Shown piece by piece: positions 25,568 to 38,386 of a DNA stretch of 64,000 bases; positions within the stretch are counted from its first letter, which is position 1; every line of letters begins with the position of its first letter. Origin of the DNA: Methanovulcanius yangii (lineage in GTDB: Archaea; Halobacteriota; Methanomicrobia; Methanomicrobiales; Methanomicrobiaceae); the NCBI RefSeq assembly GCF_018687785.1, contig NZ_LTBL01000001.1, positions 310,001-374,000 on the forward strand, in the 5' to 3' direction. The translations under genes and the position numbers were made by a program. The notes beneath the pieces were generated by a model, which was given only the letters and a program-made list of their open reading frames with translations, was not told where the DNA came from and did not search any database.

Positions 25568-26578
25568 TCAGATGAAGAATCTGAATGCCATCCACGCGAT
25601 GATTACCATTACAACTGAGTATTTCAATCCGGCAACGGCTCTTCCCTCACCCATCTGACCCGCGACAAGTCCGGAGAAGAATGCCTGTATCACGGCAGCA
25701 TGCAGGAAGAGCCGACGGTAGAAGTCCATATCGATGTTTCCACCAAAGGACATTCCCCCGGTATTCCCTGATGCGGCCATCGCAGCTCCGGCCTCTGCCA
25801 TGGTATCCAGAAATGTTCCGGTCATCACGGCAATCACGAAGAGGAAGACAAGGAAGGAAATAATCACAATAATCACATAAATGAGCATGTTATTGCGACG
25901 CTCGGTTTCGAGATTGACAAATTCATACGTGTCCGAGGCGGCGGCCCGCAGGACTTCGCTCACATCTCCGCCTGCACTGCTGGCCTTTGCAATCAGGTCG
26001 ACACTCCTCTGGGCGAGTGTTGTACCGATTCTCTCCCCAAATTGGTAGATGGCCTCAACGAACGGAATGTTCCAGGACATCTCTGCATCGAGTTTCTTAA
26101 TATATTGTGTAAGGTTGCCATATTCTCCTGTGGCGACAATATGGATCGCATTGGGAAGTGTCATTCCACTCTCATTCATTCCTGCGACATCACGGAAGAA
26201 ATTCGGGAGCGAAATATTCAGATTACGCATCCTCATGGAGTGCCTCAGGTCGAGATATGCAAGAGGGATGCAGGCGATCATCAGGGAGAGGAGGAATATG
26301 TCATCGATCACGGTCGTGGTAAACGCTGTGATCAGCCCATATTGACTTATCAGATAGATCAACCCGATGAAGAAGATCAGGATTGCTACCGGAATGGAAA
26401 CAATAAGAATGTTGAGGGGTTTTTCTGTCAGCACCTGGACCGGATGCTTCATGAATCTCCCGATTCCTTCCCGTGCCTTGTGCTGTTCCTCAACTTTTGT
26501 GAGGATTTCATCTTCCCTTTTTACCTCGGGGGATAATGGTTCGGCCGGGTCCTTTTCTTTCTTATCAAACAGTTTCAT
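25568..26578 (-). CDS. TadC-like type II/IV secretion membrane protein (T2SSF), second
   Basis: 336 aa membrane assembly platform of a type IV pilus-type system. The first two membrane helices (about 58-110: VSIPVAILIFFIGLIYLIS) precede the cytoplasmic T2SSF domain with FFRDVAGMNESGMTLPNAI and KASSAGGDVSEVL. C-terminal helices follow (MLIYVIIVIISFLVFLFVI). It is last in the run, four bases after its paralogue. Together they resemble the TadB/TadC pair that sits on one ATPase. Confidence 0.88.
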   Translation of the reverse strand: MKLFDKKEKDPAEPLSPEVKREDEILTKVEEQHKAREGIGRFMKHPVQVLTEKPLNILIVSIPVAILIFFIGLIYLISQYGLITAFTTTVIDDIFLLSLMIACIPLAYLDLRHSMRMRNLNISLPNFFRDVAGMNESGMTLPNAIHIVATGEYGNLTQYIKKLDAEMSWNIPFVEAIYQFGERIGTTLAQRSVDLIAKASSAGGDVSEVLRAAASDTYEFVNLETERRNNMLIYVIIVIISFLVFLFVIAVMTGTFLDTMAEAGAAMAASGNTGGMSFGGNIDMDFYRRLFLHAAVIQAFFSGLVAGQMGEGRAVAGLKYSVVMVIIAWMAFRFFI

Positions 26579-26582
26579 CTCT

Positions 26583-27515
26583 TTACACCTCCGGGGTCAT
26601 GGAACTGATCATGATGATGAACATGATACTGCCCAGTGGAATGATTCCGTATATCACAGCGTAAAGGAACAGGGGATCTGTTTCTCCGCTGATGGTTGAC
26701 ATAATCGACTGAAGGATGATCAGGAAGAGTGTTCCTGCCACAAGGGCTGTTACATATGATTCGGATATCAGTCCGAGCGTCTCAAGGAAGGTCTTCTGCT
26801 CGAGCCTGTTCTCCCTCGTATACTGCTCGGATTTTGTTCGGAAATATTCTGTGAGGTTACTCCCCGATGAGATGCTGGCAGTAGCCCCCTGAAGGAAGTC
26901 GCGCATGCGTGCGCTGGGAGTATAAATCCCCCCAATTCGCAGAGCATCCAGGAGATCCTTACCAAAAATATCTATTTCCCTGGCAATGTATCTCGCCTCC
27001 ACAGCACTCTCCCCATAGATTCTGGACTGACCAAGAAGCCTGAAGACCTCTGCCGGGGTAATACCCGCCGTTGACATGGCAGTGACGTAGTTGATTGCAT
27101 ACGGAAGAGTAGCATCAATGTTCCGGCGCCTTTCCCCGGCCATGACGCCGGGATAGATGAGGAAGATTGCATACGTCACGCCACCGAATATGAGAAGGCT
27201 CACGCCAAAGACGATGATTGTTCCGATGAGGAGTTTGAAGGGTTCGAGTGCGATAATAAAGGATGGGACACTCCCGTGATAAACAATCATTTCGGGGACC
27301 CGAAATGCCCATGTGAGAAGTCCGATGCCCGCCCCGGCGAGGAGACCTACAATAACCGCTGATATCACTGCCGTAGACAGATACGCTTCAAATGGAGTTG
27401 TCATTCTGGCCCTCATCATATCTGTTCTCAGAAAGAGGAAATCATCCCTCTTCCTTCTCATCCTCTCGCCGAGCAGATTGAAGCAGAAGCGTTCAAAACT
27501 ATTCATAGAGGTCAC
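26583..27515 (-). CDS. TadC-like type II/IV secretion membrane protein (T2SSF), first
   Basis: 310 aa partner of the protein above. Two N-terminal helices are visible (AYLSTAVISAVIVGLLAGAG; LLIGTIIVFGVSLLIFGGV). The T2SSF core has ATLPYAINYVTAMSTAGITP, and two C-terminal helices follow. The start overlaps the ATPase stop by 17 bases. Having two such proteins per ATPase is usual in archaeal pilus and archaellum-like systems. Confidence 0.88.
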   Translation of the reverse strand: MTSMNSFERFCFNLLGERMRRKRDDFLFLRTDMMRARMTTPFEAYLSTAVISAVIVGLLAGAGIGLLTWAFRVPEMIVYHGSVPSFIIALEPFKLLIGTIIVFGVSLLIFGGVTYAIFLIYPGVMAGERRRNIDATLPYAINYVTAMSTAGITPAEVFRLLGQSRIYGESAVEARYIAREIDIFGKDLLDALRIGGIYTPSARMRDFLQGATASISSGSNLTEYFRTKSEQYTRENRLEQKTFLETLGLISESYVTALVAGTLFLIILQSIMSTISGETDPLFLYAVIYGIIPLGSIMFIIMISSMTPEV

Positions 27516-30012
27516 CTCTCACGAGATCCATGACCGTTTCGGGGTCACGGTAATATGAGAGGAGCACTTTTCCAACTTCTTCATAGTGGCGGATCTTTTT
27601 AATACGCATCCATTCGAGAATTTCCTGTCTTCTCTTCAGTTCTTCACGCATCCGTGCTTCGCTCCAGCCTTTGGTCTCCATGATGTCTTCAAGGACATAG
27701 GATTTGCCGGAATATCGAATTTCATCCGTCGCGGCATTCCATTTGAATACCTCGTTTGTAATGAGTTCCTTTGTTCGCGGATCGATATCCAGAATTTCGA
27801 TCAGCGCCTTGTTGCGCCGGATACGCTGACCACCGAAGCGTGCCTGTACCTGAACACTGACAAGGTCGAGTGCGCTCAGCATGTTCCGGGGCACATTCAT
27901 CGGGGGGTTTTCGAACCGGTGCACCACACTTGCCACAGAATCTGCGTGCACGGTTGCATAGGTGACGTGACCGGTACTCATTGCCTGGAAAAGTGTCTGT
28001 GACTCCTTACCACGAACCTCACCAACGAGGATGTATTCCGGCCGCTGACGAAGTGCCGCACGAAGGAGTTCGTACATGTCGATGGACCCTTTTCCGCTGG
28101 AATCGAACGATTCCCTTGTAATCGAGGGGATCCAGTTCTTATGCGGAAGCTTTAGTTCTCGCGTATCCTCCAGGGTAACAATTTTCGCGAGTGGTGGGAT
28201 GAAGAGTGATATCGCATTGAGCGAGGTTGTCTTTCCTGATGCAGTGCCTCCGGCAAAAATACAGGATTTCCCGTTTTCGACAGCAAGCCAGAAGAATGCG
28301 ACCGACAGGGGAGAATATGTTCCCCACTCGATCAGATCGGTCGGGGTGATCGGTTCTTCCTTGAATTTACGGATGGTAAATGTGGAACCATGCGCCGTCA
28401 CCTCACGTCCAAGGGTCATCTGAATACGGGAACCGTCCGCCATTGTTGCATCAAGCATCGGCTCTGATATGGAGATGTATTTTCCTGCACGCTGAGCCAG
28501 TTTTGTAACAAAAGAGTCCAGTTCGGCAGTATTGTCATAGGACAGGTTTGTCTGGATTGATTCATAGTTCGAATGGAAGACGAATATCGGGGACTTTAGC
28601 CCGTCGCATGAGATATCTTCAATATATTTGTCATGCATGACGGCATCGATAACACCATCGCCGAGGAACGTCTTCTGAATATTATAATAGACTTTTGCCC
28701 GGGATGGTGGATCCAGTTTGATACCGTAATCGAAGATGATCTCGTCGACTGCACTCTTCAGAGCTTCATTTGCCTTATCCTTGGTGAGATCCTGGGTATT
28801 TACATCGAGTGTCTCAAAAAGGCGCTGGACGATTTCATCTCTCAGGACCCGTTCGGCTTCAGTCAGTACCGGTTCGATGACCCGATACTGGTACTCGTGG
28901 GCATTGTGATCAAAGATAATCCGGATATAGGCGAAGGGTTCGTTGACGGGATACAGCTCAATCTCTTCGACGGCATCGTTCTCATTCATCGTCAGGTCGA
29001 CGACCGGCCCATGAATGCTCGGATCGTACTCTTCGACCTCCCCTATGATCTTTCCGAAGATTTTGCCGCCGAATTTTCTCTTTTTCTCCTCTTTGACAGG
29101 ACTTGCAGGAGTCTCCGGCGGTGTCATCTTGGAAAGATCAAGATTATCGACATCTCCCTGAACAAGGCCGTCAAGTGCTGAGAGAATCTGTTTCCTGTCA
29201 ACAAGATCAAATTGACGGTCCTTTTCGGAAATATGGAATTCCTCCAAATCGAGCTCTGCACCCTTTGCCAGAATTAGACTTGAGAGCCCGCTGAGTTCAT
29301 CGATACTCACGACCCCGGGAGTTTTTCCTGCAGAATCAGCAGTAGTCGACCAGTGAGTTTTTCCAGGGGAAGGGCCGTCCATGGCGTCGGTATGAACAAT
29401 GACTTCTCCTCCCTGTTCATCCGATTCCTCATCGGTGATACGGGTCACTTTTGTTACAGGTCCTCCTGACGCCGTATGGATGGATGGGGCTTCTGCCTCT
29501 TCGTAGGTGGTGAGCACCTCACTGATGACAGAGCTGACCTTTCCGTCATTGATTCCGTCCCGCTCCTGTACATTTTCACTTTCTCTGATTTTTTGAATCA
29601 TATCCGATAGTGAACCGGGGGGGGCGGGTGTTTCCGCCGTATTGCTGGATTGAGGCTTGTCCTCCGGGTTTTCAATATCCAGTGTCGCCTCGATTGCTGA
29701 TTCTTCTTCTGATTGGCGTTTTAGTTCTTTTATCAGGCTTCCCAGGTCCTGTGCGGACGATCCTGCAGGTTCCGTTGGCGAAGATTGTGGTTGTTCCGGT
29801 TTACTATCAGAAATCTTCTCATCCTCTGAGATCTGCCCAGTGGACTCTTCCTGTGCGATATTTACCGTTTCGTCGGGAGAATCCTCCAGACCCCTGGTCA
29901 CTCCGCTTATGATATCCCCGGCATTTTTATCCACATCCGATGCATGTGTTTCATCCTCAGATTTTTTTGTGAAGCCCTTTATCCCTTTGAAAAGTGAATT
30001 TTTGTCATTCAT
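27499..30012 (-). CDS. Type II/IV secretion system ATPase (GspE/TadA family)
   Basis: 837 aa secretion ATPase that powers pilus or secretion-filament assembly. Walker A GGTASGKTT is near residues 587-595 and Walker B YILVGEVRG follows, with VTYATVHADS as the His box. The C-terminal half is a normal TadA/ArlI-like enzyme. The first roughly 320 residues are an acidic, Ser/Pro/Glu-rich stretch of low complexity, unusual in length, that probably acts as a flexible docking region. GGAGGT seven bases before the ATG decides the start at 30012. Confidence 0.92.
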   Translation of the reverse strand: MNDKNSLFKGIKGFTKKSEDETHASDVDKNAGDIISGVTRGLEDSPDETVNIAQEESTGQISEDEKISDSKPEQPQSSPTEPAGSSAQDLGSLIKELKRQSEEESAIEATLDIENPEDKPQSSNTAETPAPPGSLSDMIQKIRESENVQERDGINDGKVSSVISEVLTTYEEAEAPSIHTASGGPVTKVTRITDEESDEQGGEVIVHTDAMDGPSPGKTHWSTTADSAGKTPGVVSIDELSGLSSLILAKGAELDLEEFHISEKDRQFDLVDRKQILSALDGLVQGDVDNLDLSKMTPPETPASPVKEEKKRKFGGKIFGKIIGEVEEYDPSIHGPVVDLTMNENDAVEEIELYPVNEPFAYIRIIFDHNAHEYQYRVIEPVLTEAERVLRDEIVQRLFETLDVNTQDLTKDKANEALKSAVDEIIFDYGIKLDPPSRAKVYYNIQKTFLGDGVIDAVMHDKYIEDISCDGLKSPIFVFHSNYESIQTNLSYDNTAELDSFVTKLAQRAGKYISISEPMLDATMADGSRIQMTLGREVTAHGSTFTIRKFKEEPITPTDLIEWGTYSPLSVAFFWLAVENGKSCIFAGGTASGKTTSLNAISLFIPPLAKIVTLEDTRELKLPHKNWIPSITRESFDSSGKGSIDMYELLRAALRQRPEYILVGEVRGKESQTLFQAMSTGHVTYATVHADSVASVVHRFENPPMNVPRNMLSALDLVSVQVQARFGGQRIRRNKALIEILDIDPRTKELITNEVFKWNAATDEIRYSGKSYVLEDIMETKGWSEARMREELKRRQEILEWMRIKKIRHYEEVGKVLLSYYRDPETVMDLVRGDLYE

Positions 30013-30634
30013 TCATCCCACCTCCGATTTCAATAATTGTTTCCACCCTTGAGTCATTGAACTCAATCCTAAACTTGTGAATCTTTTGATCACGGTCAAC
30101 AATGACGCAGTCGTAAATGCCATTAACCAGTTTAAATGTAACATTCCCTTCCGCCCCGGTCAATTCGCTCAGAAGCATCTGACGTCCCTTCCTGATCGAG
30201 ACCCTGACGCCCTGTTTCGGCTGATTATTCTCCAGAATGATCAGTTTCAATGTCCCCCTCGAAAGTTTGGCACCCCCAATTGTTGGAATATCATCCAGCT
30301 GAGATCCATGTAGATGGCCTTTATCATAAATTCTGCACCCCGCTGCCACTGACTCTGCATACCGATGGTCGCAAACATAGACCTTGAATTTGCTGTCTTC
30401 CTTGCAGAGATAGATTGCTTTATCTCCAAAAAGATTACCTTCGGACGACATGAGCGCTGCCCCTTCCGGTTGCCCGTCAACAAATATCAGAAGAAATTGT
30501 TTTTCCTTATCCGATGACAATGCAAGTCCAGAGCGTCCTGAAGCCTTCATCTTGCTAATCAGGTCGTCGGTTCCGTATTCACCGGCATATTTGGAATTTT
30601 CAATGACAACCCTGATATGATCCTCAATTTCCAT
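30005..30634 (-). CDS. DUF2226-like protein with beta-sandwich C-terminus
   Basis: 209 aa protein of unknown function. Residues about 36-100 (LLIFVDGQPEGAALMSSEG onward) match in pattern the N-terminal domain of the next upstream gene product. A beta-sandwich like CarboxypepD-regulatory domains follows (KLIILENNQPKQGVRVSIRKG; ELTGAEGNVTFKLVNGIYDC). No membrane segment or signal peptide is seen. The stop overlaps the secretion ATPase start by eight bases, so the two are translationally linked. A 136-base AT-rich spacer before it may hold its own promoter. Confidence 0.65.
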   Translation of the reverse strand: MEIEDHIRVVIENSKYAGEYGTDDLISKMKASGRSGLALSSDKEKQFLLIFVDGQPEGAALMSSEGNLFGDKAIYLCKEDSKFKVYVCDHRYAESVAAGCRIYDKGHLHGSQLDDIPTIGGAKLSRGTLKLIILENNQPKQGVRVSIRKGRQMLLSELTGAEGNVTFKLVNGIYDCVIVDRDQKIHKFRIEFNDSRVETIIEIGGGMNE

Positions 30635-30685
30635 CCTATCACCACACCCCACCGATACCATTTATATCCTTCAATTTTTCATTTA

Positions 30686-30700
30686 ATATATTTTTGCCAT
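30686..30700 (-). promoter_or_regulatory. Possible internal promoter upstream of the pilus part
   Basis: The spacer 30635-30770 holds AAAATATATTAAATG on the minus strand, the best TATA candidate there, about 55-65 bases before the ATG at 30634. It would allow the ATPase/TadC genes to be transcribed separately from the hydrogenase genes. Confidence 0.4.
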
Positions 30701-30770
30701 TCAATGGGCATTTTTTCATCTCTGGTGTTCGTCGTTTGTCTCCTGTCATTCTCCATTGCCTATACATTTT

Positions 30771-31433
30771 TCATTGGACTCCCTGAATTGCAAGTCTGAT
30801 AAGTCCCAGATTTGCATTGGTCGTTGTAAGGATGCAGATGAAAAGATCCCCGAATGGAGCAAGGATGAATTTGGCCTCTGAAGTTTCGAGGATGATCTGG
30901 TCCATCATTCCAATTCCCAGGTCTCCTGCAATTTTTACCCCTGCACGGTGAAAATCCTCAGCAATAGCGGCAACCTTCTCGAAATCCCCTTTCCCCTTTG
31001 AATGTACTGGAAATCCCTCAAAAAAGGCTGCCACTGCAAGCACGCCTGGCTGCTTCAAAATCTTTTCCAGTTTCTGTTCATCCGAGAGTTCGGCCTTTTC
31101 TTCAGGAGGAAGCGTCTGGTGATCAACCAGCCACTTATGGTTGATGGCGTATGTCACTGCATCGCGAAGTTCGGGTTCAGAATATGTCATAATCTCGAAA
31201 GTGAACTTTTGAGGCTCCCTGAAAATGAGTATCGCGTCGTTTCCCCGGTAATCTCCTTCATCGGAAGAGAAATATCCGATGGCCGGGATTCCATTTTCCA
31301 TTATGAGATAACCGGTACCCCTCTCAGAGTATGCTTTCACGCCAACCAGGATTTGGCTGCTGTACTCGGACAACTCAGCGAACGGACACTCGAGTTTGGC
31401 TATCCGTTTTCCATCTGGAAGCATGGGAATCAT
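30771..31433 (-). CDS. DUF2226-like domain fused to roadblock/LC7 domain
   Basis: 220 aa. Residues about 8-110 contain YLIMENGIPAIGYFSSDEG and FTFEIMTYSEPELRDAV, a DUF2226-like unit similar to the following gene product. Residues about 125-220 (ILKQPGVLAVAAFFEGFPVH; FGDLFICILTTTNANLGLI) form a roadblock/LC7 fold. Roadblock proteins bind small GTPases or serve as regulatory dimers. The ATG overlaps the upstream roadblock gene by four bases (ATGA). This domain pair is uncommon to my knowledge. Confidence 0.7.
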   Translation of the reverse strand: MIPMLPDGKRIAKLECPFAELSEYSSQILVGVKAYSERGTGYLIMENGIPAIGYFSSDEGDYRGNDAILIFREPQKFTFEIMTYSEPELRDAVTYAINHKWLVDHQTLPPEEKAELSDEQKLEKILKQPGVLAVAAFFEGFPVHSKGKGDFEKVAAIAEDFHRAGVKIAGDLGIGMMDQIILETSEAKFILAPFGDLFICILTTTNANLGLIRLAIQGVQ

Positions 31434-31777
31434 AATGCGGCGATAATTCGTTCTCTGTTCTTCTTCAGTTCATAGCGGATACGGCCGATATTGACCTCCT
31501 TTTCCGCCACAATTGCAATCAGTTCATCCTCAGAGAGAGGTGAGAGAAGTATCGGGCCGTTTTCAAGTTCGACGAGCATCTGGATCATCTCACCCTGCCC
31601 GAGTTCTGCCCCCATTGCCTCTGAGGTGCCCATGCCGGTTGAAGCCATTGCACCGAGCGCTTCTGTATCAATTTCCCCTTTTTCCGCACTTTCAATTACA
31701 AATCCATCTCTGCCGACGACAACCGCGGCTTTTATGCCGTCAAGTCGGAGAAATTCCCCTAAAATTGATTTAAGCAT
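31430..31777 (-). CDS. Roadblock/LC7 domain protein
   Basis: 115 aa single-domain roadblock/LC7 protein. MLKSILGEFLRLDGIKAAVVV, DGFVIES and the GPILLSPLSEDELIAIV strand pattern are typical of MglB/roadblock folds. Such proteins regulate Ras-like GTPases and act as dimers. No GTPase gene is in the window. Its ATG overlaps the hydrogenase large-subunit stop (TGATG), so the regulator is translationally coupled to the hydrogenase. Confidence 0.85.
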   Translation of the reverse strand: MLKSILGEFLRLDGIKAAVVVGRDGFVIESAEKGEIDTEALGAMASTGMGTSEAMGAELGQGEMIQMLVELENGPILLSPLSEDELIAIVAEKEVNIGRIRYELKKNRERIIAAL

Positions 31778-33189
31778 CACAAACACCTCTTAATCTGAAT
31801 TCTCTTTCCATCTCTATTATCGTTTTTCCCGTGGACCAGCTCAAATGTTACCGGCATTTGTTTGATTGCATGGGTTGCACAGGATATGCAGGGATCATAT
31901 GCCCTGATTACCATCTCTATCTGATTTTTCGCGCTCTCTGAAATATCACCATTTCGCACAACCTTGCGGGCTACATCCTCCACCCCACGATCCATCGCCC
32001 AGTTGTTCTGGCATGTTGCAACGATGAGATTACATTTTTCGATAAACCCTTCATCGTTTACCGTATAGTCATGGATCAAAGTTCCCCGTGGAGCTTCGAT
32101 GATGCCAACCCCCCGTTTGTTTACCACCTCATTAATCGGGGTTCTGATGAAATCACCGGTAATGGAGGGGTCCTTAAGAAGATCAACTGCCCGCTCCGTT
32201 GCAGCCAGAAACTCGATATACCTGGCTGGATTATAGGCAAGGGTTGTCTGGACCACCCTGCCGAATTTGTCCCGGTATTCATCCAGGGCTTCGTCAGCGC
32301 GGGGGGTACCCATCGAATTCACGATATTTAACCTCGCAAGAGGACCTACACGATAGTAGTTGCCACTTGCCAGTCTCGCAAATTTCAGATAGGACCAGCT
32401 CTCTGAGTACTCTTCAATGAAATCAAGGTATCCCGCGCCATCATATGTCCCGGCAAACGTTCCTTCGGGAGAAAGTATCTGTGGCGAACCTTCGCAGACT
32501 GAGAAGGTTCCATTATTGGAGAGGCCCATGAATGATGATTCTACAGCACCAAACGAGAGATCCGCCTTTTCGAGCAAATCCTTAGCCATTCCCCAGCAAT
32601 CTATAGCAATGGCAAGGGATTTTTCAGCCATGGCCAGGAGCTCTGCACGGCTCTGTTCGGATAGGGTATGGGATATCCCGCCGGGGACTGCGGAAGAGGG
32701 ATGAATTGGCTTTCCGCCAATCGCTTCTGTCAGTCTCTGACCGAATTTTCTGACCTCGATTGCCTTTTTGGCAATTTCAGGGGATTTTTTCACCAGGCCG
32801 AGTATGTTTCTCTCTTCCGGGTTCACTTCGTGACCAATGAGAAAGTCGGGAGCTGCCAGCATGAAAAAGTGAAGTGAGTGGGAATGGACGAACTGTCCAA
32901 GCATGAGAAGTTCCCTGAGTTTTTGTGCGGTCGGGGGGACTGTAGCCCCAAATATCTGATCGCATGCCTTGACGGATGCAATATGATGTGATGTTGGGCA
33001 GATTCCACATATTCTCGGGGTAATCCTGGGCGCTTCTTCTACTGCGGCTCCGATCATGAATTTTTCGAAACCCCTCAGCTCGACAACATTGAAATGTGCG
33101 CTCTCCACTTCTCCCGCATCGTCCAGTTGGATTCGCACCTGTGCATGACCCTCAATGCGGGTAACGGGATTGATACAGATATTTTTCAT
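31777..33189 (-). CDS. [NiFe] hydrogenase large subunit, Mvh/Frh-like
   Basis: 470 aa catalytic subunit of a group 3-like [NiFe] hydrogenase. The four Ni-Fe ligands are present: C61 and C64 (RICGIC) and C434 and C437 (DPCISC). His440 is followed by a 30-residue tail, presumably removed by a maturation protease after nickel insertion. So the enzyme looks active and not a degenerate sensor. It lies with only a small subunit. No MvhD and no F420-binding FrhB gene is adjacent, so the electron partner must be elsewhere or be the nearby ferredoxin. The ATG overlaps the small-subunit stop (ATGA). Confidence 0.9.
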   Translation of the reverse strand: MKNICINPVTRIEGHAQVRIQLDDAGEVESAHFNVVELRGFEKFMIGAAVEEAPRITPRICGICPTSHHIASVKACDQIFGATVPPTAQKLRELLMLGQFVHSHSLHFFMLAAPDFLIGHEVNPEERNILGLVKKSPEIAKKAIEVRKFGQRLTEAIGGKPIHPSSAVPGGISHTLSEQSRAELLAMAEKSLAIAIDCWGMAKDLLEKADLSFGAVESSFMGLSNNGTFSVCEGSPQILSPEGTFAGTYDGAGYLDFIEEYSESWSYLKFARLASGNYYRVGPLARLNIVNSMGTPRADEALDEYRDKFGRVVQTTLAYNPARYIEFLAATERAVDLLKDPSITGDFIRTPINEVVNKRGVGIIEAPRGTLIHDYTVNDEGFIEKCNLIVATCQNNWAMDRGVEDVARKVVRNGDISESAKNQIEMVIRAYDPCISCATHAIKQMPVTFELVHGKNDNRDGKRIQIKRCL

Positions 33190-34106
33190 CGCTTACCTCC
33201 CTCGGAGATAAGTTCACGGATCTTGGAAATTTGCTTGTCCTCCATCACTTCACTCCCCATGGTAAAGGCGTACATGGTGTGGCTTACATCGTAGAACTGC
33301 TTTGCAATCTCTTTTTCCGGGATGTCGGTCAGGTCTGCAATACGCCGTACCATCAGATTGTAGATATCCCGGCATGGCTCGCGGAGAATATCGAGCGAAG
33401 GACCGTTGCACCCATGGCAGGGAACATTGTTTTTTGGACATGATGCTCCGCATCCGCAGAAGGTTACCGGTCCGAGGCAGAGATATCCCTGACCCAGAAG
33501 ACATTTTCCTGGAAGAGGGACTCCTTCATGGCGTCTTCTCAGCGCCCACTCGGTAACCTCCCCCATCTTCCGGTCACATTCGGAGCAAACAGATTTTCTT
33601 GAGAGACTGATCGAATCCCCCGTTATCAAGGGCAGGATGATCTCTTTGAGCCTCGCCTCCTTTGGCGGGCAACCCGGTATATAATAATCGATTTTTACCA
33701 TATCCCCGACGGCAAAGACACGATAAAGAAACTCAGGAACCTCCACAGGAATGGTATTTGATTCATTCGCAGTCTCTACTCCCTGATAAACCTCTCTGAA
33801 TATTTCATCCCTGCTGTGAGTCATCGAGAGTCCGGAAACTCCTCCATAACATGCGCATGTGCCGAGTGCGACAAGGGTTTTTGCCTTCTTTCTTATGGTT
33901 CTGAGCCGTTCCTGATTCTCTTCATTCCGTACTGCGCCGGTAACAAAAGCGATGTCGATGTCATCAGGTGGTGTTTTAACATCCATGATGACGGGGGAAT
34001 ATACTATGTCCGCCTTTTCAATGATGTCGAGGATCGCTTCATGGAGATCGAGTACTGCGATTGTACACCCGGAACATCCTGCAAGCTCTTCAATGGCAAT
34101 TTTCAT
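33186..34106 (-). CDS. [NiFe] hydrogenase small subunit, Mvh-like
   Basis: 306 aa electron-transfer subunit. C11 and C14 (LAGCSGC), GTCACYGG and IPGCPP supply the proximal iron-sulfur cluster ligands. The C-terminal part is Cys-rich (CSEC; CLLGQGYLC; CGCGASC; CHGC), giving two more clusters as in MvhG/FrhG. No Tat signal is present, so the enzyme is cytoplasmic. GGTGATATCC before the ATG decides the start at 34106 over 34115. Confidence 0.9.
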   Translation of the reverse strand: MKIAIEELAGCSGCTIAVLDLHEAILDIIEKADIVYSPVIMDVKTPPDDIDIAFVTGAVRNEENQERLRTIRKKAKTLVALGTCACYGGVSGLSMTHSRDEIFREVYQGVETANESNTIPVEVPEFLYRVFAVGDMVKIDYYIPGCPPKEARLKEIILPLITGDSISLSRKSVCSECDRKMGEVTEWALRRRHEGVPLPGKCLLGQGYLCLGPVTFCGCGASCPKNNVPCHGCNGPSLDILREPCRDIYNLMVRRIADLTDIPEKEIAKQFYDVSHTMYAFTMGSEVMEDKQISKIRELISEGGKR

Positions 34107-34117
34107 GGATATCACCG

Positions 34118-34681
34118 CTATTTTAGGATCAGTTTTTTGAGACAGGCGTTTGGACCTGTATGGATGATTTCAAGTTTTCCGCGTTTGCCGGTGATCTCTT
34201 CCACCGCACCGACGACATAGCCGCAGAGCGTCTGGCAGAACGGCCCTCCCTGTTCCTGCCCGATTCGTCTGAGGGTCTGTCTGACGATGCAGTCGTGGAA
34301 AACAAGGTAGATGAACGTGCTTCCGTCTTCTTCGACGATATAATCCTCCTTGTCTCCCGGTTTCCATGGTTCGAAAGAATATTGTCCGTGGAGGATATAC
34401 GAAAGTTCCCTTAGCGCTTCTTCAACATCCTCTTTCTTTTCGAAGTATTTTGCGACCTCGTGTCCGAATTTTTTCCCGGCACGGTAAGTGACAGCATTTG
34501 CACCCCGTCCGGCAATCTCTTCGAGCGACTTAATTATATATCCATTCATCTGCATGAGCCCGTGCAGGGTTACCTCAAGTTCTGCGGCGGGAGGATCACA
34601 CCTGAGCGGGACATCTTCGGACTTAAAGACAAGGTCAGTCCGGAACTGTTCCTTCGCTTCATCTATATAGCTGGCTGTCAT
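34118..34681 (-). CDS. V4R-like (4-vinyl reductase family) ligand-binding protein
   Basis: 187 aa. The C-terminal region (GGPFCQTLCGYVVGAVEEIT and HTGPNACLKKLIL) resembles the V4R fold, a small-molecule or hydrocarbon-binding domain that often has a regulatory role. The usual V4R ending of two Cys and a Gly/Asp is only partly kept. Its ATG at 34681 overlaps the ferredoxin stop (TGATG). Association with a hydrogenase suggests a sensor or assembly role, but this is inference. Confidence 0.55.
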   Translation of the reverse strand: MTASYIDEAKEQFRTDLVFKSEDVPLRCDPPAAELEVTLHGLMQMNGYIIKSLEEIAGRGANAVTYRAGKKFGHEVAKYFEKKEDVEEALRELSYILHGQYSFEPWKPGDKEDYIVEEDGSTFIYLVFHDCIVRQTLRRIGQEQGGPFCQTLCGYVVGAVEEITGKRGKLEIIHTGPNACLKKLILK

Positions 34682-34926
34682 CAGATCACTTTCCTGAGCA
34701 TTGTGCACACTTTCATGCTGATATACATCCTGCGAGAAGGCACTGCCCCTTTGTGCTCAAGAGCCTGGGCAGGACATATTTCATGGCATGAGAGGCATCC
34801 CATGCAGTTTTCAGGTCTGATAGGTGTGCAGGTATCATTCTGGAGCTCCAAAACATCCATTGGGCAATCCTTAACGCATAAACCGCATCCCACGCATGCA
34901 TTTTTGTCAACGCTGATTTCAATCAT
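34681..34926 (-). CDS. 2[4Fe-4S] ferredoxin
   Basis: 81 aa with two CxxCxxCxxxC sets: C11, C14, C17, C21 and C41, C44, C47, C51. A basic C-terminal tail follows. As the first gene before a hydrogenase without MvhD, it could be the electron acceptor or donor. AAGG lies about ten bases before the ATG. Confidence 0.9.
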   Translation of the reverse strand: MIEISVDKNACVGCGLCVKDCPMDVLELQNDTCTPIRPENCMGCLSCHEICPAQALEHKGAVPSRRMYISMKVCTMLRKVI

Positions 34927-34980
34927 TCTGGTAACCTTCTTGCCACGGGAAGGTGAGAGGGCCCTCGCCAGTGATGTATG

Positions 34981-34992
34981 GTAATAATTAAA
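34981..34992 (-). promoter_or_regulatory. Promoter of the ferredoxin-hydrogenase operon
   Basis: TTTAATTATTAC on the minus strand lies about 60 bases before the ferredoxin ATG and would give a leader near 35 bases. Directly upstream of it is an imperfect inverted repeat at 35004-35029. The whole 299-base divergent spacer to the prepilin peptidase gene is AT-rich and has no reading frame of note. Confidence 0.5.
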
Positions 34993-35003
34993 TGGTGATT
35001 GTA

Positions 35004-35029
35004 ATATGGTATAGACTTTCCTATCATAT
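35004..35029. other. Imperfect inverted repeat in divergent promoter
   Basis: ATATGGTATAG (35004-35014) and CTATCATAT (35021-35029) pair over nine bases with a two-base bulge and a six-base spacer. It sits just upstream of the hydrogenase-operon TATA element, a position suited to an activator or shared operator. No other copy was noticed in the window. Confidence 0.35.
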
Positions 35030-35225
35030 TTGATGGAAATCTATTTATTGTGTCTTCATTTGATTTTTTTAATAAATGAGTATATTTGTCTAATATTCTG
35101 GATTAATGACAAAATGAGAGGTTTTTATTACATATCATTTTTGATATTCAATACAAACGTTCATTAGTGCATTGTGGTGCAGTACCGCCACACATAAATG
35201 ATCCGATGACTTACTATTTTCATTC

Positions 35226-36020
35226 ATGATAATTCCAACCCTTGCTCTCTCATCTGTAGCCATCGGCCTTACACTGGGTTATGCGTCAATTCTGGACATT
35301 CGTGAGCGCAGAGTTCCCTTTAAAACGTGGTATCCAATGCTTGGAATCGCGATTCCAATGGCAATTGTCACATACATAATTCTTTTTTTCGAAGGAATAA
35401 ATCCCGTATTTTTAGCCGGAATTTTCATAATTTCTGCGTTGTTATGCGGATTTTTCTACTTTGCTTCAGCATATCTCCATCTCTTCGGGGGAGCCGATGC
35501 ATGGGCGTTGATTTTTATTACTGCATGTATGCCACTGTATCCGGTGGAACCTGTGGTTGGCTATCCACTGCTTGCCTATTTCCCCTTGAGCGTTCTCATC
35601 AATGCGGTAATCCTGAATATGTTGGCACCTGCTGCCATTCTCGGAATGAATCTGAAGAGAGGAAATCGTGCCCCTCTACGATATATGCTGGTTGGATATC
35701 CAGTTGACGGGGAAACTATTGAAAATGAATTTGGATTTATTATGGAAGATTTTACCGAAAACGAAGATGGGAGTATATCCCGTCGTTACCTTTCATTCGG
35801 TGAGGCAATTACAAGAATGCTCAAAGGCGAGAGAAGGCTATATACAAGGGATTTCAAACGTCATCCTGAGGAATATCGAAAAGAACTGGAAATATACCGA
35901 AAGGCGGGAAGGGTATGGATATCATATGGGGTGCCTTTTATTGTTCCCATCTGTGGAGGATTCATATCAGCGGTGATATTTGGTGATTTCCTCTTTATCG
36001 TGATGACAGCTCTGATATAG
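35226..36020 (+). CDS. Prepilin/preflagellin peptidase (A24 family)
   Basis: 264 aa membrane aspartic protease that trims class III signal peptides of pilins. The catalytic Asp pair is D24 ([13 protein letters not shown]) and D91 (FGGADAWAL). Several membrane segments follow; a charged loop of about 80 residues precedes the last helices. It is divergent from the hydrogenase-pilus run and is the obvious processing enzyme for that system. No pilin-like gene with a class III signal was found in the window. Confidence 0.92.
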
Positions 36021-36427: not shown

Positions 36428-38386
36428 ATGAAACTCGTACCCGATACGAGCGTCGTCATAGACGGACGCATCACCTCCATGCTCAGGGAGGGAGAATATA
36501 AGGGTTCCACAATAATAATACCCGAAGCCGTTATCGCAGAACTTGAATCACAGGCTAACCAGGGAAGGGAAATTGGTTTTAGCGGCCTTATCGAGCTTCA
36601 GGAACTCTCCAAAATCGCAGAAGCAGGGGAGATAGAACTCTTTTATGTTGGGGACCGGCCAAGTCTGGAACAGGTAAAACTCGCCAGTGGCGGGGAGATA
36701 GACGCAATTATTAGAAATGTGGCTCTTGAATACGAGGATGCACGGTTTATTACCAGCGATATTGTACAGGCTGAAGTTGCCCGCGCAAAGGGAATTGATG
36801 TCCTCTATCTCAAACCGCAGATCGGAGATTTTTCGCCTCTGTCAATTGAACGTTTCTTTGATGATACAACGGTTTCCGTTACCCTCAAAGAGCGTGTGAA
36901 ACCCATCGCAAAGAAAGGTGAACCGGGGAACATGAAACTTGTCCCGGTGCATGATGTTGCCCTGAGTGAATATGACCTCAGGCAGACCGCACAGGAGATT
37001 CTCGAACGGGCTAAGCGTGACCCGGAAGGGTATATCGAGATAGAACGCCGTGGGGTCACCGTTGTTCAGATTGGTGCCATGCGTATATCCATCGCACGCC
37101 GACCGTTCACTGATGGGATGGAAATTACTGCTGTGCGTCCGGTAAGGAAATGTGTTCTTGATGATTATGCCCGGGCAGATCTTGTAAAAAAATCCCTTGG
37201 CACCGGAAAACAGGGGGTAATCATTGCAGGCACCCCCGGGAGCGGTAAAACGACCCTCGTGCGCAGCATTGCCCTCTCTCTTGTACAGGCTGGATATCAG
37301 GTATCTTCCATGGAGTCTCCGCGAGATCTCCAGACTCCAGAGGGAATTACCCAGTTTACCGCTCTTGACGGCAGTATGGCCCAGACCGCGGCAGTCCTCC
37401 TGATGTCCCGTCCGGATTTTGTCATATTTGATGAAATCAGGAAGGATGACGATTTCAGGGTATTTGCAGATATGCGCCTTTCGGGCGTTGGAATGATTGG
37501 TGTTCTTGATGCAGCAGATGTTCTGGAAGCTCTTCAGAGGATTCTCCTCAGGATTGAGTTGGGTGTTGCGGCAATGTCCGTCAGTACCATTGTCCTGATA
37601 AAGGATGGGAACATTCTGGGAGTATACAGCATGAACTATGCGATTCGGCAGCCGTCGGATATGCCGGACTCCTCTGCACCCCGTCCTGTGATTACCGTGA
37701 CGGACATGCAGAGCGGTTCACCAGTTGGTGAGGCGTTCAGGTATGAGGGGGAAACAGTCATTCTCCCCCTCCGCAAAGGAGAAGCTCCACGTCCCGAACC
37801 GTCCCCGGCTGTGCCTTCGAAGGTTGCAAAGGAAGAAACCGCTCCCCCTGCTCCTGTTGAAGAACCGGCGCATGAACCTGAAATCCCCGGTGAAAATCTC
37901 GCATGGAAGGTGGCCGAACGTGAAATACAGCATGAAATCGGACGTTTCACTGATGGCCCGGTGAAAGTCAGAATGCTGACGGACAATAAGGCTGTTGTGT
38001 ATATAGATGACCGGGATGTACCTGCTGCCATTGGAAAAGGAGGGAAAAATGTGGCGGGGATTGTTAATAAACTGTCCATCGGAATCGACATCCGTCCACT
38101 CTCGGAGTATGCCGAAAAAGAGGAACGTTCAGGGGCTCCAAAGGCTGAAGGTATTACCACAAGTGAGGGAATTGAGCTAAGGACCGACAAGAAGAATCTC
38201 TCAATTATCAGTCTGGAAAATGCAGGGAAGATCGTCGACGTATTTGGTGGGAAAGAGTATCTCTTCACCGCGACGGTAAACGATGCAGGTGAGATCACCG
38301 TTGCGAAGAGCAGCACCATAGCCCAGGACATGATTCGCCGGTATGAAGACGGGGAGGTCATCCGCCTCAAACCGGTAGGAAACTAA
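36428..38386 (+). CDS. PIN domain - VirB11-like ATPase - KH domain protein
   Basis: 652 aa. A PIN-type nuclease domain at the N-terminus has D6 and other acidic residues (DTSVVIDG). A VirB11/PilT-like ATPase has Walker [10 protein letters not shown] at about 268-276 and Walker B FVIFDEIR. The C-terminal KH domain ([19 protein letters not shown]) binds RNA. The order is known for the archaeal PINc/VapC ATPase family (COG1855-type), probably in RNA turnover or quality control. GGTGAT precedes the ATG. It is downstream of hisI. Confidence 0.88.

Follow-up and report, generated by a model that had tools for sequence, protein, structure and literature searches.

A gene run in Methanovulcanius yangii that joins a [NiFe] hydrogenase, roadblock proteins and the machinery of a type IV pilus (T4P) consists of two separable modules. 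Since the hydrogenase module often lies outside the pilus module, the strongest link in the run is that of the hydrogenase to its regulators, not that of the hydrogenase to the pilus. We favour, at a probability of roughly 0.45, a reading in which this specialised Mvh-type hydrogenase would either feed an H2 or redox signal into a MinD/roadblock/PATAN spatial-control cassette or be positioned by it as cargo, the cassette serving the T4P motor as well. The run lies in a stretch of 64,000 nucleotides (the window) and has the following features:

35226..36020 (+), A24-family archaeal prepilin peptidase, divergent (PF06847 and PF01478)
34681..34926 (-), fd, 2x[4Fe-4S] ferredoxin of 81 aa (Pfam Fer4)
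34118..34681 (-), v4r, V4R/Bet3-fold protein, its start set at the conserved M10 of the ORF
33186..34115 (-), mvhG-like gene, hydrogenase small subunit (Oxidored_q6)
31777..33189 (-), mvhA-like gene, [NiFe] hydrogenase large subunit (NiFeSe_Hases)
31430..31786 (-), robl, single-domain roadblock/LC7 protein (PF03259, E = 1.5e-16)
30771..31433 (-), d5, beta-rich PATAN/DUF2226-like domain, then a roadblock domain (Robl_LC7)
30635..30770 (no strand), gap between the hydrogenase half and the pilus half
30005..30634 (-), d4, PATAN-like N-terminus and CarboxypepD_reg-like domain (from alignment); first gene of the pilus half
27499..30012 (-), PilB3-type secretion/pilus ATPase (T2SSE, PilB3_C)
26583..27515 (-), TadC/T2SSF membrane protein 1 (PF00482, E = 5e-15)
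25568..26578 (-), TadC/T2SSF membrane protein 2 (PF00482, E = 1e-15)

All ten minus-strand genes of the initial annotation were present at their coordinates and on their strand, and Pfam and NCBIfam agreed on the domains. The junctions are overlaps or very short gaps with the sole exception of 30635-30770, an interval in which an AT-rich stretch contains a TATA-box-like sequence, aaaaatatattaaa, ahead of d4. Alignment of relatives placed the start of d4 at 30634, the conserved M10 of its ORF; the conserved start of v4r at 34681 overlaps the fd stop by one base. Beyond the run, a gene at 36428-38386 (+) encodes a PIN-domain protein with a T2SSE-like ATPase core; throughout the order this gene adjoins the pilus locus, as do hisI and leuS.

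MvhA and the ATPase were searched in 130 Methanomicrobiales genomes, and the gene order was read around both. The hydrogenase module, H (fd-v4r-mvhG-mvhA-robl-d5), was found in 65 genomes, half of the order being without Mvh. The pilus module, P (divergent leuS, the PIN/ATPase gene, hisI and the prepilin peptidase gene, then d4-ATPase-TadC1-TadC2), is nearly universal, with an ATPase homolog at E<=1e-60 in 128 of the 130. Distances were taken from the coordinates of the MvhA and ATPase matches. The modules were linked in 27 of the 65 mvhA genomes, with the hydrogenase no more than 6 kb from the orthologous ATPase on one contig and H sitting between the prepilin peptidase gene and d4; they were 0.9-1.6 Mb apart on one contig in 9 and on different contigs in 26, and 3 gave no ATPase entry. 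Two of the 26 split-contig genomes (G103 and G049) look linked from their contig-end context, and in the others examined H had separate surroundings of its own. Linkage of H to P is dispensable, which counts against the favoured reading, since the modules are far apart in the 9 genomes with both on one contig and probably in about 20 more.

The order seen in the window was found again in Methanogenium, Methanofollis and several MAG lineages, all with linked modules, and Methanoculleus (f4) has them apart; one MAG labelled Methanoculleus (L108) shows the linked arrangement and may be mislabelled. The genes of each module kept their order even where H and P were apart, and fd-v4r-mvhG-mvhA-robl-d5 had a single order wherever it was found in Methanomicrobiales. 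Chance adjacency is ruled out by this conserved order in many genomes and by the 27 of 65 with H and P within 6 kb. Insertion of the hydrogenase block into a conserved locus by rearrangement, leaving it functionally unconnected with pili and roadblock proteins, would suit the separation of H and P in many genomes and the possible separate promoter at 30635-30770. Such an origin is nevertheless very unlikely in view of the order conserved after relocation and of two recurrences, the hydrogenase beside roadblock/MinD genes in more than one family and, in f10, mvhA beside the gene for a PilB3-type ATPase.

The initial annotation described a physical union of hydrogenase and pilus through roadblock proteins. 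The roadblock pair is indeed common to both halves: in genomes with the hydrogenase away from the pilus it accompanies the enzyme, and in those lacking the hydrogenase it is retained next to the pilus ATPase gene. An obligatory union is ruled out, because Methanoculleus and several Methanomicrobiaceae (four genera of the window's family) keep the modules far apart and because many genomes have the pilus locus and no Mvh at all.

Robl_LC7 was matched by d5 in 27 of 27 relatives. Its predicted structure is confident (mean pLDDT 89) and has a roadblock fold, the C-terminus matching MglB among other roadblock structures. The roadblock part of the name first given to d5 thus stood; the DUF2226 part is weakly backed, with DUF4388 (PATAN) matched at E = 0.0027 in 2 of the 27 relatives and DUF2226 at E = 0.03 in 1. 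Away from the pilus, H is usually headed by genes for MinD, a roadblock-like protein with a TM anchor, a hycI-type protease and a PATAN-like protein, here called the MQLPRG protein. MinD and PATAN-like genes lie between d5 and d4 in f2 and f3, in the place of the 30635-30770 gap. Family f5 has no Mvh; in most of its genomes looked at, robl-d5 lie directly against the ATPase gene, with genes for the MQLPRG protein, TM-roadblock protein and MinD nearby.

The robl-d5 pair persists without a complete mvhA in f5, and also in G079, in which a remnant of mvhA is kept and robl-d5-d4-ATPase is intact, and in G071, which has kept the genes for the MQLPRG protein, TM-roadblock protein, robl and d5 without hydrogenase or MinD. 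G079 and G071 appear to have lost the hydrogenase recently. In a tree of concatenated robl-d5, the copies from f5, G079 and G071 grouped with hydrogenase-linked pairs. No complete hydrogenase block of the window type was seen without robl-d5 in Methanomicrobiales. Because the regulators outlive the hydrogenase in several lineages and no complete block lacks robl-d5, the data suit an enzyme that was added to an existing control system. The link of the hydrogenase to the MinD/roadblock/PATAN cassette is a deeper one than its link to the pilus.

MinD2 positions motility machinery in Haloferax (PMC11588486), and the MinD copies seen here keep an amphipathic-looking C-terminal tail, a motif consistent with membrane binding. 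It is conceivable that the cassette brings the hydrogenase and the base of the pilus to one site, such as a cell pole turned towards hydrogen-producing partners, and senses nothing. The placing of cargoes by MinD-family proteins, the MinD tail and the TM-anchored roadblock-like protein in the clusters of relatives agree with this. We consider positioning without sensing distinctly unlikely, as the fold of the V4R protein resembles sensory domains and module H of the M. yangii genome contains no minD, the nearest copy being approximately 45 kb away.

The hydrogenase itself is not degenerate, all metal ligands being intact: Ni ligands C61, C64, C434 and C437 of MvhA were invariant in 20 of 20 sequences, and the 12 invariant cluster cysteines of MvhG make up three Fe-S cluster ligand sets. 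MvhG aligns along its length with MvhG of PDB 5odc (5odc_E). The best sequence matches of both subunits are of Mvh/Vhu type, chain D of PDB 7t2r being another close match of the large subunit, and full-length homology and the complete ligand sets liken them to the F420-non-reducing hydrogenase of MvhAGD-HdrABC. The window copy differs from that enzyme in having no adjoining mvhD or hdr, in having its own ferredoxin, V4R protein and roadblock genes, and in its score against NCBIfam VhuA of 415.8 bits, half of the equivalog cut-off of 800. It also has an extra cysteine, Cys248 of MvhG, which was found in 73 of 74 Methanomicrobiales, 3 of 4 Methanocella and 3 of 3 f9 copies, and in none of 6 other Mvh copies examined. 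The ferredoxin conserves all eight cluster cysteines and has an extra one, Cys74, in 75 of 75 Methanomicrobiales and 4 of 4 Methanocella copies. The MvhA tree did not resolve the regulator-linked copies as one single clade and left the deep branching open.

Recurrence beyond Methanomicrobiales emerged when 394 genomes of the phylum were searched with a v4r profile. Four f14 genomes, taken as Methanocella, have fd-v4r-mvhG-mvhA-robl-d5-mql-x-minD. In f9 the order is v4r-mvhG-fd-mvhA with robl nearby in 3 of 3 genomes, G132 having TM-roadblock and minD genes as well. Two f10 MAGs have fd-v4r-mvhG-mvhA followed by genes for a PilB3-type ATPase and a TadC-like protein, the mvhA-ATPase spacing of -4 and +55 nt meaning overlap or near-abutment (L177 2250-2253; L178 4009-4077). 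Methanocella and G132 possess a separate, further Mvh beside Hdr-type genes; the regulator-linked Mvh in these genomes is therefore not simply the Hdr partner. No description of a link between a hydrogenase and these regulators or the pilus was found in the open-access literature searched, which makes the novelty provisional, and a literature search for roadblock proteins together with hydrogenase returned no relevant paper.

In the M. yangii genome, the module H copy is the only Mvh-type hydrogenase found, and the only MvhD-family match lies with Hdr-like genes approximately 980 kb from it. As the sole Mvh-type hydrogenase of the genome, it may serve HdrABC, whose MvhD is elsewhere. MvhAG could be nothing other than the usual H2-oxidising partner of the bifurcating complex HdrABC-MvhD, with the ferredoxin and the V4R protein as electron-transfer or assembly partners, roadblock/MinD proteins localising or assembling MvhAG, and the pilus link a neighbourhood inherited by descent. 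This is in line with the closest known relatives being Mvh/Vhu, with the hycI-type maturation protease (PF01750) that often heads the cluster and with Anderson et al. 2009 (PMC2686161), in which Memar_1007-1008 were treated as an F420-non-reducing hydrogenase feeding Hdr. A purely metabolic role is possible, although on balance we doubt it: no mvhD or hdr was recognised within module H, Methanocella and G132 have their separate Mvh beside Hdr genes, half of Methanomicrobiales do without Mvh, and v4r and the roadblock genes are invariable companions in that order.

The v4r gene occurred in 64 of the 130 genomes, all within the mvhA set, and in 52 of 52 among the good genomes; the sole mvhA genome without it, G055, has a fragmentary assembly. 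Conservation of the protein is unusually high, with C140, R143, Q144, C158, H183 and C189 invariant or nearly so across 87 relatives, including three invariant cysteines and an invariant histidine. Its description as V4R-like was not borne out at the Pfam threshold, as none of 20 relatives matched V4R (PF02830) and one f9 homolog scored 16.4 bits against a gathering threshold of 31, and a PDB sequence search with the v4r profile gave nothing useful. The predicted fold, in contrast, appears close to that of V4R/Bet3/DmpR-type domains: with an AlphaFold model (mean pLDDT 70), Foldseek returned PoxR and DmpR sensor domains and TRAPPC3 with probability 1.0 and TM about 0.4. The V4R-fold domain of DmpR binds zinc via three Cys and a Glu (PMC7264223); by this analogy, a metal or redox site in the V4R-fold protein is plausible. 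In the pilus-locus region of f5, a double-V4R protein is encoded, in some genomes with a response regulator with PAS (L078 14595-15722, L080 14905-15696).

In the pilus half, the ATPase scored 117 bits with T2SSE and above the cut-off with PilB3_C, and PilB3_N gave 23.1 against a cut-off of 27. A role as archaellum motor was rejected, the FlaI model scoring 414 against a cut-off of 550. PF13620 was matched by 7 of 23 d4 relatives. The two TadC/T2SSF proteins and the prepilin peptidase are present as in an archaeal PilB3-type T4P assembly locus; no pilin was recognised among the genes of the run. In the survey by Makarova et al. 2016 (PMC4858521), archaeal T4P loci are linked to roadblock and FleN/MinD proteins, and the likeness extends to the PilB3-type ATPase, two TadC proteins, prepilin peptidase and roadblock and MinD companions. 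Unlike those loci, the present one has a hydrogenase block inside it, and hydrogenase is not mentioned in the survey's main text.

The favoured reading, a hydrogenase tied to the spatial-control cassette, may be pictured as follows. In the M. yangii lineage, the roadblock/PATAN cassette, which in relatives includes MinD, would have been built into the PilB3-type pilus-motor locus. Electrons from H2 oxidised by MvhA would run via MvhG to the dedicated ferredoxin; the V4R protein would then alter its contact with the roadblock pair according to its redox or metal state, and roadblock, PATAN-like and MinD proteins would determine where the pilus ATPase sits or how active it is, d4 serving as a motor-proximal adaptor. 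As a variant, the hydrogenase would be positioned cargo, not a sensor. The sequences themselves show gene content and order, the co-occurrence of v4r with mvhA, intact metal ligands, recurrence across the phylum and regulators that survive without the enzyme; that electrons reach V4R, which way signals travel and whether the pilus is affected is inferred, as is the hydrogen- or redox-responsive organelle proposed in the initial annotation. Because the hydrogenase block sits inside the pilus-motor locus in about half of the relatives checked, H2 may control where or when surface filaments work.

HupUV/HoxBC are regulatory hydrogen-sensing hydrogenases, and the likeness to them would be that of a hydrogenase as input to a signalling chain. 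They belong to a different hydrogenase group, no histidine kinase is encoded in the window run, and the sensing role here is a proposal from genes. A wider claim, which we hold to be somewhat unlikely, is that a phylum-wide class of dedicated [NiFe] hydrogenases reports H2 or redox state via the ferredoxin and the three-cysteine V4R protein to MinD/roadblock/PATAN control of polarity and T4P, so that archaea would possess a hydrogen sensor connected to a surface machine. To our knowledge, H2 sensing in archaea and the placement of methanogen filaments towards hydrogen-producing partners are open questions, for which the present hydrogenase, accompanied in several orders by a spatial-control cassette, offers a concrete, testable candidate. 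If the proposal is true, some Methanomicrobiales and Methanocella genes that are annotated as Hdr partner hydrogenase may do something else.

Two known systems resemble the regulatory part. Among the cyanobacterial PATAN regulators of PilB, PixE reportedly binds PilB1 (cited in PMC7690835); there, too, small regulator domains lie beside a pilus ATPase or act on it, but PATAN homology is weak in the window proteins. The MglA/MglB polarity control of T4P in Myxococcus also has roadblock-fold proteins beside the pilus motor. It differs in its MglA GTPase, for which the locus has no counterpart and the genome no PF08477 match above cut-off with the one model tried, and the known MglA/MglB system has no enzyme input. 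No kinase is encoded in the window locus; this, the MglA result, the MvhA tree without a single clade of regulator-linked copies and the lack of a recognised pilin speak against the favoured reading. Chemotaxis as an obligatory output was rejected, as Methanocella paludicola (G146) and G132 have the cluster and no CheW match. Between fd and the prepilin peptidase gene, L042, L043, L045 and L112 have an extra, diverged robl-d5 pair with small neighbours, which in L042 include a HAMP-domain membrane protein. A second PATAN-like - TM-roadblock - MinD cassette is present in the window's genome (L098 8283-11886; G000:C1 about 388-391 kb), near RNA polymerase genes and with a divergent pair of roadblock and response-regulator genes.
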